Part shown: positions 25,500 to 28,593 of the stretch, piece after piece
Layout of the letters: each line of letters opens with the position of its first letter
How positions within the stretch are numbered: position 1 is the stretch's first letter
Assembly: GCF_014118685.1 (NCBI RefSeq)
Contig: NZ_JACFAK010000001.1
Coordinates: forward strand, 1 to 64,000
Length of the DNA: 64,000 bases
Reading direction: 5' to 3'
From: Flaviflexus huanghaiensis
GTDB taxonomy: Bacteria > Actinomycetota > Actinomycetes > Actinomycetales > Actinomycetaceae
The notes under the pieces: generated by a model
What the model saw: only the letters and a program-made list of their open reading frames with translations
Told to the model about the DNA's origin: nothing
Database searches by the model: none
Translations under genes and position numbers: made by a program

Positions 25500-26735
25500 A
25501 TGTACTGCATGACTATCAACGCCGGCGCTCCGCGCACCCAGCGACCGATCCGCGCACGTCGGCACGATCCGGCGATGCAGCCGATGATCGTCATCTGGGA
25601 GGCCACGCGTGCCTGTCAGCTTGCGTGCCGCCACTGCCGAGCAGAAGCGGCTCCGGGACGCAGTATTTTTGAGCTGACGACCGATGAGGCGACGAAATTG
25701 ATGGAAGAGGTGCTGTCCTTCGGCAAGCCCGCGCCAATCTTCATCATCTCGGGAGGCGACTGCTTCGAGAGGGACGACCTCTATGAGATCGCGAAACGCG
25801 GCGTCGACATGGGTCTCCATGTTGCGGTCTCCCCCTCTGGCACCGACAAGCTCGATCGGACGTCGCTCAAGAAGCTTCAGGACGTCGGGGTCAACGTGAT
25901 CTCGCTGTCCCTGGATGGTTCGACACGAGCCAGCCACGATGGCTTCCGCCGCATTCCGGGCACATACGACAACACGATTGCCGGATGGGAGGCTGCCCGT
26001 GAATTGGGCATGAAGGTTCAGCTCAACACTGTCGTTGCGCGGCACAACGTGTTGGAGCTGCCGGCTATCGCCCAGACTGTCCGCGATCTTGGTGTGCTCA
26101 CATGGTCCGGATTCCTCCTCGTCCCGACGGGCCGCGGCGTTGATCTTGGAGCCCTGACCGCGGAGGAGACCGAAGACGTGCTTAACGTCTTCTACGACAT
26201 GGGAGAGACTGTCCCCGTCAAGACGACAGAGGGCCATCATTTCCGCCGCGTCTCCATCCAGCGGCATATTCTCGCCGAGGCGGGCGCGGACCATGTCGCC
26301 ATTATGAATCTCGGACCTCTGTACACCACCCTTCGTGCGGACGCGGAGGCCCGTGGCCTTCTCGCCGGCGAACGACGGCGCCGCCCGCCCATCAATGTCT
26401 CATCGGGCAACGGCTTTGTCTTCGTCAACCACGTCGGCCAAGTGACTCCATCTGGCTTCCTCGATGTCCCAGCGGGAAATGTCCGAGACTCGTCGATCGT
26501 CGACCTGTACCGCGACTCGGAGCTCTTCACCGGAATCCGTCGACCCGACCTGCTCGAGGGCAAGTGCGGGGCGTGCGAGTACAACACCGTGTGCGGAGGC
26601 TCCCGCTCGCGCGCCTACAACTCGACCGGCAATATCTTCGCTGAGGAGCCCATGTGTGTCTACGAGCCTGGCAGTTTTCCTTACGCGGACGAGGTCAAGG
26701 AGCTCTTCGCGGCTAATTCTCCGAGTAGAGGCTGA
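25500..26735 (+). CDS. Radical SAM/SPASM domain protein (TIGR04053-like)
   Basis: 411 aa. The [4Fe-4S]/SAM motif is CQLACRHC, directly after IVIWEATRA, and a SPASM-type C-terminal cysteine cluster (GKCGACEYNTVCGGSRSRAY with a later CVYEPG) binds extra clusters. The arrangement resembles TIGR04053 and the heme-modifying NirJ/AhbD family, so heme or peptide maturation is possible; the substrate is not evident. ATG 25500 and ATG 25509 are both feasible and neither has a ribosome binding site. The 3' end overlaps the convergent nucleosidase gene by 23 bp. Confidence 0.88.
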   Translation: MYCMTINAGAPRTQRPIRARRHDPAMQPMIVIWEATRACQLACRHCRAEAAPGRSIFELTTDEATKLMEEVLSFGKPAPIFIISGGDCFERDDLYEIAKRGVDMGLHVAVSPSGTDKLDRTSLKKLQDVGVNVISLSLDGSTRASHDGFRRIPGTYDNTIAGWEAARELGMKVQLNTVVARHNVLELPAIAQTVRDLGVLTWSGFLLVPTGRGVDLGALTAEETEDVLNVFYDMGETVPVKTTEGHHFRRVSIQRHILAEAGADHVAIMNLGPLYTTLRADAEARGLLAGERRRRPPINVSSGNGFVFVNHVGQVTPSGFLDVPAGNVRDSSIVDLYRDSELFTGIRRPDLLEGKCGACEYNTVCGGSRSRAYNSTGNIFAEEPMCVYEPGSFPYADEVKELFAANSPSRG

Positions 26736-28026
26736 GGATCGCGTCAGCCCACGTGCCGAAGTGCTGGCGGATCGAGGCGCCTGACGGATAGGGCTTGTCC
26801 TGGGAGGACAACCACTGCTGGTAACCGGAATACGAGGGATTGCGCCGCTCCGCACTCATTGCCTCGTGGTAGAGACGAATCGCCTCGCGGTAGTCCTCAT
26901 CGGAGTAACGCAGTCCGCCCCGGCGTCTCCCGCTGCCCCCGGTTAAACCAATCGCGGTCATCGCGTTGTTCCAGTAGCCGTCGAAACGCTTCATGATGGT
27001 CTGCGACGTGGGCGGCCACGTCTGGCGTCCGCGGCCGCCAACGAGGTTAAGATCTTCGAGGATTTCTGCACGGAGCGTGTCATACCGCTGCGACGTGATT
27101 CGCGCAGACGGGTTGTCAGCGACGAACTGCTTGCCAGCGGCGATAAGTTCGGCGAAGGATCGCACCTGCTCGTCATGCAGATCGCGCGACAGGTCGGATA
27201 GGTCGAGATTGAGGTCCGTCGCGTCCACTGGTTCCAGACCATTGTCGATCGCGACGACAGCGAACAGTGCTGCGAAGAGGGCATCAAGACCGAACTGCCG
27301 GCGGCGTCTGCCGGGCGTCCCTCCACCTCGCAACACCGAGATGATCTCGAGGGTTGTCTCCGCGGCGAGCACGGCGGCCTCATCGAGGGCCATGTGGAAG
27401 TCTTGATCGGCGGCGGGGCCGCACAGGTCAGAGACGGCGCGTACGGCGGCGAATTGCGTGCCGAATGCGTGGCAGACCTGGGCGGCGGCCACGGATTCCA
27501 TGTCGGTCGACAGGGCAGTCGGGAATGCCTGACGCACAGCGTCGACGTTCTTTGCTGTGACGAAGCTGTCGGAGGACAGCATGAGACCGGTTGTCACACG
27601 GTCGTTCTCAAGCTGTTCGACGATGTCGAGGACTCTTGGCGAACACGTGAACTCTGGCGGCTGACCCGGCACTTGGCCGAACTCATAGTCGAAGGCAGTC
27701 GCGTCTGCCATGCCATACCGATAGGTAGAGCCGATGATGATGTCGCCGACCTCAACAGACGGGTGTAGACCACCGGCCGTGCCGGAGAAGAAGACGTCGC
27801 GGGTCGAGACTTGTCCAAGCGCCCACGTGAGGGCGCTCGCTGCCGCCGTCTGTCCAATTCCCGACTGAACGAGAAGGATCCGTGGTGAGGCCAGTTCGAG
27901 GAACCACGCTCTGAAGGTCGACGGTGTAGTGAGCTCGCCAACGCGGCGCGTCGCGCGCGCTTTGGCAAGGAAGGGCTCCGCCTCTTCCGGCATTGCGGTG
28001 AGGACGATTGCGGCGGCAGTACGCAT
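26713..28026 (-). CDS. MTA/SAH nucleosidase fused to HNH-associated repeats
   Basis: 437 aa. Residues 1 to about 235 are a MTAN/Pfs nucleosidase that splits adenine from S-adenosylhomocysteine and methylthioadenosine: Glu in MPEEAEPF (12-19), SGTAGGLHPSVEVGDI (81-96), E177 in STDMESVAAAQ and D200 in AVSD are all present. About 240-437 is extra. It includes two modules resembling the HNH-associated helical repeat (PF18780 type): about 308-361 with TIMKRFDGYWNNAMTAIG and 374-434 with ASIRQHFGTWADAILSLY. Two bp downstream of luxS, so the pair catalyses SAH to ribosylhomocysteine to homocysteine plus DPD. Function of the C-terminal half is unknown. Confidence 0.88.
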   Translation of the reverse strand: MRTAAAIVLTAMPEEAEPFLAKARATRRVGELTTPSTFRAWFLELASPRILLVQSGIGQTAAASALTWALGQVSTRDVFFSGTAGGLHPSVEVGDIIIGSTYRYGMADATAFDYEFGQVPGQPPEFTCSPRVLDIVEQLENDRVTTGLMLSSDSFVTAKNVDAVRQAFPTALSTDMESVAAAQVCHAFGTQFAAVRAVSDLCGPAADQDFHMALDEAAVLAAETTLEIISVLRGGGTPGRRRRQFGLDALFAALFAVVAIDNGLEPVDATDLNLDLSDLSRDLHDEQVRSFAELIAAGKQFVADNPSARITSQRYDTLRAEILEDLNLVGGRGRQTWPPTSQTIMKRFDGYWNNAMTAIGLTGGSGRRRGGLRYSDEDYREAIRLYHEAMSAERRNPSYSGYQQWLSSQDKPYPSGASIRQHFGTWADAILSLYSEN

Positions 28027-28028
28027 GG

Positions 28029-28493
28029 CTACGCTTTCATGACCTGTGACCAGGAGTCGCGCTGATCGAGCATCGCCCGGGCCGCCTTCTTGGCACCCTC
28101 AAGATCGTGGCTTGCTCCCCACCCGCACTGGACGACGTTTGCGGCAGGAACTTCATCCACGCCGAGAAGATCGGTGAGGGTCTGCGCGACAAGCTCGCGG
28201 ATTGCCTCCTCGTCCGGTTCGCCCGCCATGAGCAGGTAGAAGCCGGTCTGGCACCCCATGGGGGAGAAATCGATGACGTCGTTGGAATGGTTGCGCGACA
28301 GTTCCGCGAAGGTGTGCTCGACGGAATGGATTGTCGGCATTTCAAGGTGCTCAACGTTCGGCTGGCAGAAGCGGACGTCGTACTTTGTCAGCACATCTCC
28401 CTTCGGAAGGGTCTTCACGTCAGCAACCCGGATGTAAGGAGCATCGACATCCCGATGATCCAGATTGAACGATTCAACATTCATTGTCGACAT
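28029..28493 (-). CDS. luxS: S-ribosylhomocysteine lyase LuxS
   Basis: 154 aa metalloenzyme that yields homocysteine and DPD, the precursor of autoinducer-2. Metal ligands H56 and H60 in HSVEH, catalytic E59, C81 in [10 protein letters not shown], and C123 in QCGWGASHD match the family. ATG 28493 has GGAGGAC just upstream. A longer frame exists but includes this site and no better start. Upstream gene of a two-gene unit with the nucleosidase. A -10-like TAGGAT lies at 28517-28522 (minus strand). Confidence 0.96.
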
Positions 28494-28593
28494 ATGTCCT
28501 CCACGGCTAGAATCTGATCCTACTGTAGCGCGGTCAGCGACAGCAGGAGTGCAGACAATATTTCCTGGTCTGGATTCGATCACTTTGGTGAAC

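Follow-up and report, generated by a model that had tools for sequence, protein, structure and literature searches.

The window analyzed here is the whole stretch of 64,000 nucleotides (positions 1 to 64,000 of contig NZ_JACFAK010000001.1) from Flaviflexus huanghaiensis. An open reading frame (ORF) at 26713-28026 on the minus strand encodes a protein of 437 amino acids with no internal stop codon, and we confirmed that an MTA/SAH nucleosidase (MTAN; residues ~1-235) and a helical extension (residues ~240-437) are fused in this single protein. As the earlier note had claimed, the fused gene neighbors luxS, a gene of the same strand that ends 2 bp upstream. The features are as follows, in the order of transcription.

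28029..28583, minus strand: luxS (S-ribosylhomocysteine lyase), with matches to PF02664 (174.2 bits, residues 35-178) and PRK02260 (190.8 bits)
27322..28026, minus strand: MTA/SAH nucleosidase domain, residues 1-235, from Pfam, NCBIfam, the alignment, Foldseek and the alignment with E. coli 3o4v
27097..27321, minus strand: less conserved helical linker region, residues 236-310, from the model helices, a majority frequency of 0.45 and the stand-alone sequences
26713..27096, minus strand: two-repeat HNH_repeat module, residues 311-437, including the stop codon, from PF18780, invariant columns, helices and a dN/dS of 0.02-0.10

The true start of luxS likely lies near residue 31 of its ORF. A gene of the TIGR04053-type radical SAM/SPASM family (453 bits; 25500-26735, plus strand) lies tail to tail with the fused gene, and the two overlap by 23 bp at their 3' ends. 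Radical SAM enzymes often yield 5'-deoxyadenosine, a substrate of MTAN; no clustered relative of this gene was seen in the other stretches compared. On the opposite side, a divergent gene for a thiamine-binding protein (plus strand) seems to bear, upstream of 28606, a TAGCGT-like -10 element roughly 6 nt ahead of the start codon ATG. This stretch is conserved in close relatives, and the transcript is perhaps leaderless.

The N-terminal part of the fused protein matched PNP_UDP_1 in Pfam (residues 7-228, 130.1 bits against a cut-off of 25.1) and TIGR01704, the NCBIfam model of MTA/SAH nucleosidase (136.6 bits against 73.8), while the score for the narrower NCBIfam model PRK05584 (149.7) was below its own cut-off of 169. 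The catalytic residues E177 and D200, noted earlier as intact, are identical in all of the 30 aligned fused sequences, and E15 is identical in the 27 sequences that reach that position. E177 and D200 align with the structure of the E. coli enzyme (3o4v), of which we take Glu12, Glu174 and Asp197 to be the catalytic residues, E15 being equated with Glu12 by pattern. Glu12 and Asp197 are named in the PDB titles of Foldseek matches; no paper giving the MTAN catalytic residues by number was found in the literature search. In the full-length model, computed by AlphaFold from an alignment of 18 of the 29 fused-relative loci plus the window protein, the nucleosidase domain was confidently predicted (block pLDDT mostly 80-96). 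Foldseek placed 4qez_B on top with this model (E 1.9e-24, TMt 0.92), and all 50 matches listed were MTAN-type structures. Altogether, we regard the N-terminal part as very probably an active MTAN. It has the fold, the conserved active-site residues and the luxS adjacency in common with MtnN/Pfs (TIGR01704), but the window protein carries ~200 extra C-terminal residues. The 20 plain MTAN relatives examined (a subset of L011-L035) stop 222-256 codons past the start of the match.

No SAH hydrolase (PF05221) was found in any of the six genomes of the genus, in a search whose control was positive in 9 of 14 genomes. Each of the six genomes has three PNP_UDP_1 matches. In the window genome, of which the assembly is 97.8% complete, the other two were called purine-nucleoside phosphorylases, and the fused protein is therefore the only MTAN found. 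As judged from gene content, MTAN together with LuxS is the only route of SAH removal found. No paper on Flaviflexus with luxS was retrieved by the literature search. A passage of PMC2561040 states that Actinobacteria, except two bifidobacteria, bear only SAH hydrolase, and this statement, as worded in that passage, does not fit the genus Flaviflexus.

The C-terminal region matched HNH_repeat (PF18780) in two stretches. The better one covers residues 339-361 (24.3 bits, E 4.2e-5); the score of the whole protein was just under the curated cut-off of 26, and that of the last 137 amino acids alone (28.4 bits) was above it. All of the 30 fused relatives matched PF18780 at E<=1, with a best value of 1.7e-9. 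Together with the PNP_UDP_1 and TIGR01704 matches, these bear out the proposal that a nucleosidase and HNH-associated repeats reside in one protein. The description of the extension as about 200 residues holding two helical modules needs an amendment: the two HNH_repeat stretches are there, but a less conserved helical stretch, beginning at ~240, precedes them. The alignment of 30 revealed a conserved helix closing each repeat, with the patterns WPPTSQTI-KR----W--A and PSGA-IRQ--G-W, and the last helices of both repeats are very conserved, being near-invariant. The conserved helices of the module lie at ~341-358 (the IMKRFDGYWNNAMTAIG region) and 419-436 (the ASIRQHFGTWADAI region). A direct profile comparison of repeat 1 with repeat 2 was weak (probability 31%, 19 columns). 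The models, at low confidence, contain nothing but helices in the module, which we read as three per repeat; the pLDDT of a module-only model was 50.5. The best match in a search for a solved homologue of the module had an E of 0.36 and is not credible. Weak matches to TPR_7 were found in four of the 30 fused sequences (best E 0.0074, below the cut-off). The two repeats and the (P)S..IxxRFG.W..A pattern are common to the module and PF18780, the homing endonuclease associated repeat. Unlike in homing endonucleases, the repeats here are joined to a metabolic enzyme, and no Pfam match to an HNH nuclease domain was found in the 437-residue protein up to E 10. HNH_repeat is named from association, and no tested function of it was found in the literature searches.

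In comparisons with four relatives, dN/dS was 0.088-0.188 for residues 1-235, 0.065-0.155 for residues 236-310 and 0.023-0.098 for residues 311-437, the last being the lowest in all of the four; as dS ranged from 0.76 to 3.33 and was partly saturated, these values are good for ranking only. The C-terminal half, whose conservation the earlier note had left to be checked, is thus strongly conserved, with dN/dS of residues 311-437 below that of the enzyme in every comparison. Invariant positions among the 30 fused proteins amounted to 23 of 127 in the module and 22 of 235 in the enzyme. The mean net charge of the 30 sequences was -8.7 for residues 1-235 and +8.5 for residues 311-437 (range 0 to 15); the window's own module is near-neutral (+2 for 311-437, -2 for 236-437). 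The fusion is full-length in all of the six genomes of the genus, and this, together with the dN/dS of 0.02-0.10 at residues 311-437, indicates that it is not a product of chance. A spurious C-terminal half is ruled out by its presence in relatives, the alignment and the low dN/dS.

The same fusion was sought in relatives and found intact in 49 of the 213 genomes of the family, distributed in 13 genera (g1, 2, 4, 6, 7, 8, 9, 13, 18, 25, 28, 29 and 32); the 49 were counted from two search tables, and 30 sequences were aligned. Matches to the window protein, mostly to the enzyme part only, occurred in 211 of the 213 genomes, and the module was found in 83. In 33 genomes of six genera (g11, 16, 19, 23, 27 and 30), the module is encoded outside any MTAN frame, as read from 11 proteins and, for the other 22, from the search tables. 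One further genome (G084; L122, C1:93790-95069) has the fused gene broken into two frames within the module region, through either a genuine frameshift or an error in the sequencing. Fused and full-length stand-alone copies were never found together in one genome of the family; in G083, G118 and G195, a protein of a different kind gave an additional partial match. Two genera, g4 and g8, are not uniform: no module match was obtained for G061 and G077-G082. At the level of the order, the module occurs in 60 of 396 genomes, including 47 that do not belong to the family; of the 20 stretches taken from out-of-family genomes, 18 yielded a module-bearing frame, and an MTAN was present in none of these. 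Only five of 396 genomes of the phylum, including the window genome, gave a match. Searches of viral contigs, plasmids and phages yielded no confirmed relative, and we set a mobile or viral origin aside.

In the tree of 52 modules, all of the 31 fused sequences were on one side of a single branch with a support of 93/94, the 21 stand-alone ones being on the other, and one change suffices in 87% of 200 bootstrap trees. The tree comprises fetched loci only, excludes L056, L058 and L062, and is drawn open, with its root not fixed. The simplest reading of these data is one fusion followed by vertical descent with some losses.

By eye, the stand-alone module proteins that were read also carry a region like residues 236-310 before the repeats, and the module should therefore be regarded as ~200 amino acids long. 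Those of related genera (for example L108, L123 and L160) resemble the extension in the whole module, including the 245-310 region, but possess no enzyme domain and mostly have other gene neighbors. Some stand-alone modules fell below PF18780 (no match in L107 and L143; 14.5 bits in L112). The stand-alone gene in L107 (5701-6453, minus strand), L109 (7485-8234, minus strand) and L114 (7091-7843, plus strand) adjoins a presumed nrdF where an nrd cluster ends, and a plain MTAN gene lies 4.6-6.2 kb away. NrdI and NrdE were identified by Pfam in the window, and a role of the L107/L109/L114 module in the control of ribonucleotide reductase is possible. The other stand-alone copies read lie beside a putative ABC-transporter pair and a putative S4-domain protein, and no methyl-cycle neighbors were seen in the stretches read for stand-alone modules outside g19 and g23.

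Related repeats occur beside Sigma70_r4 in L120 (24.4 bits, cut-off 24.1), L154 (23.2) and L119 (15.7), the latter two being below the cut-off, and the module in L143 is joined to HTH matches, all below cut-off. The proteins of L119 (6864-8054, minus strand), L120 (6430-7701, plus strand) and L154 (6934-8637, plus strand), 396-567 amino acids in length, have a segment resembling Sigma70_r4 as well as several HNH_repeat units (52-66 bits), and appear to represent an undescribed type of DNA-binding protein in actinobacteria. In L152 (7002-8567, minus strand), a weak two-repeat module accompanies a TY-Chap3 domain (PF22552, 44.8 bits).

Our greedy-by-length gene calling missed the fused gene in L104, luxS in L094, L104 and L105, MTAN in L127 and L128, and module genes in L110, L116, L124, L155 and L157; for this reason, tblastn was used to count luxS and MTAN anew. 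Within a flank of 1.5 kb, luxS lies upstream on the same strand in 27 of the 29 fused relatives (absent there in L044 and L055), and it adjoins the fused gene in 13 of the 16 longer stretches (not in L098, L099 and L106). Unfused MTANs in L107, L109, L114, L126, L127 and L128, albeit not that in L129, are also near luxS. Thus, the pairing of luxS and MTAN either predates the fusion or is unconnected with it, and the adjacency gives no sign of the role of the module. The fused gene of L106 shares its start region with an overlapping Fur-family gene (66.6 bits), of which clustered relatives are near the fused gene in L094, L096, L098, L122 and L125.

We searched the 15 non-coding upstream regions, leaving out L098 and L099, which are without luxS, for spaced dyads of 4- and 5-mers, direct repeats and 8-10-mers, with 60 shuffles each, and nothing exceeded the shuffles. 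In 17 upstream regions that included the first luxS codons, no excess of dyads was found, and the k-mers in excess were those codons. A palindrome at 28552-28567 was not conserved in the alignment and is taken as chance. A regulatory target may lie elsewhere than in the upstream regions searched.

Regarding the function, we tentatively favor the view that a functional MTAN is linked to a module that binds nucleic acid, and that the whole may be a trigger enzyme. In this scheme, MTAN and the adjacent LuxS would remove SAH, MTAN acting also on MTA and 5'-deoxyadenosine, and the helical module with two repeats would bind nucleic acid, DNA being the likeliest target. The modules would come in pairs, as MTAN is dimeric. 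Ligand in the active site would presumably alter how the modules engage DNA, and the enzyme would thereby signal methyl-cycle status to one promoter or several. Binding of nucleic acid by the module is probable: the Sigma70_r4/HTH-like partners of related repeats provide moderate support, and the mean charge of +8.5 at residues 311-437 and the very conserved last helices favor it indirectly. The retention of an intact fusion of one origin, the low dN/dS of residues 311-437, the absence of genomes with both fused and full-length stand-alone copies, and the failure to find a second MTAN or an SAH hydrolase speak for the reading as a whole. Regulation coupled to the ligand is conceivable rather than probable. 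PutA, BirA and NadR are trigger enzymes in which, as proposed here, an enzyme and a DNA-binding part reside in one chain; for the window protein, on the other hand, DNA binding, an operator and a response to ligand are hypothetical. No operator was found, the window's own module is near-neutral, the models of the module are weak and so are the Sigma70_r4/HTH matches, all of which argue against this reading, as do the stand-alone modules that fall below PF18780 or lie away from methyl-cycle genes and the luxS adjacency of unfused MTANs. A bolder version strikes us as rather unlikely: one chain would be both sensor and regulator for SAH/MTA, and, as the sole enzyme found to clear SAH, it would pass the level of by-product in its active site to specific DNA sites by means of a module that acts in related genera as a DNA-binding regulator of its own.

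The module could instead anchor the enzyme to the nucleoid, or to RNA undergoing methylation, and have SAH removed where methyltransferases act, with no promoter controlled. This idea, which we consider unlikely, accounts for the same anatomy and conservation as well as for the failure to find an operator, but near-invariant last helices suggest a specific target, and tethering would presumably gain little because SAH diffuses freely. Slightly less likely still, the module may serve as a protein-binding, allosteric or oligomerisation domain that makes no contact with nucleic acid. Its all-helical nature, the near-neutral charge in the window protein and the weak TPR_7 matches are consistent with such a role, whereas PF18780, matched by every fused sequence and paired elsewhere with Sigma70_r4/HTH-like domains, argues against it, and so does the occurrence of the module separately, without MTAN. 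Least probable is a neutral fusion, in which two adjacent genes became one frame and the job of the module is unrelated to the enzyme. Separate module and MTAN genes lying near each other in L107, L109 and L114 speak for it, but 49 genomes from 13 genera have kept the fusion intact, and only a single case (G084) is frame-broken.

Our literature searches, with most subscription journals outside their scope, found no description of the MTAN plus HNH_repeat layout, in agreement with the earlier note, which knew of none. No paper was found under "homing endonuclease associated repeat", and nothing relevant by title on a nucleosidase fused to a DNA-binding domain or acting as a trigger enzyme. In the part of PMC8078820 consulted, PF18780/HNH_repeat is a row in a modelling table, given without function.

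SAH inhibits methyltransferases. If the trigger-enzyme reading is true, a sole SAH-clearing enzyme with a DNA-binding module of its own would be a direct wire from methylation load to gene expression. The conserved fusion also offers a handle on PF18780.
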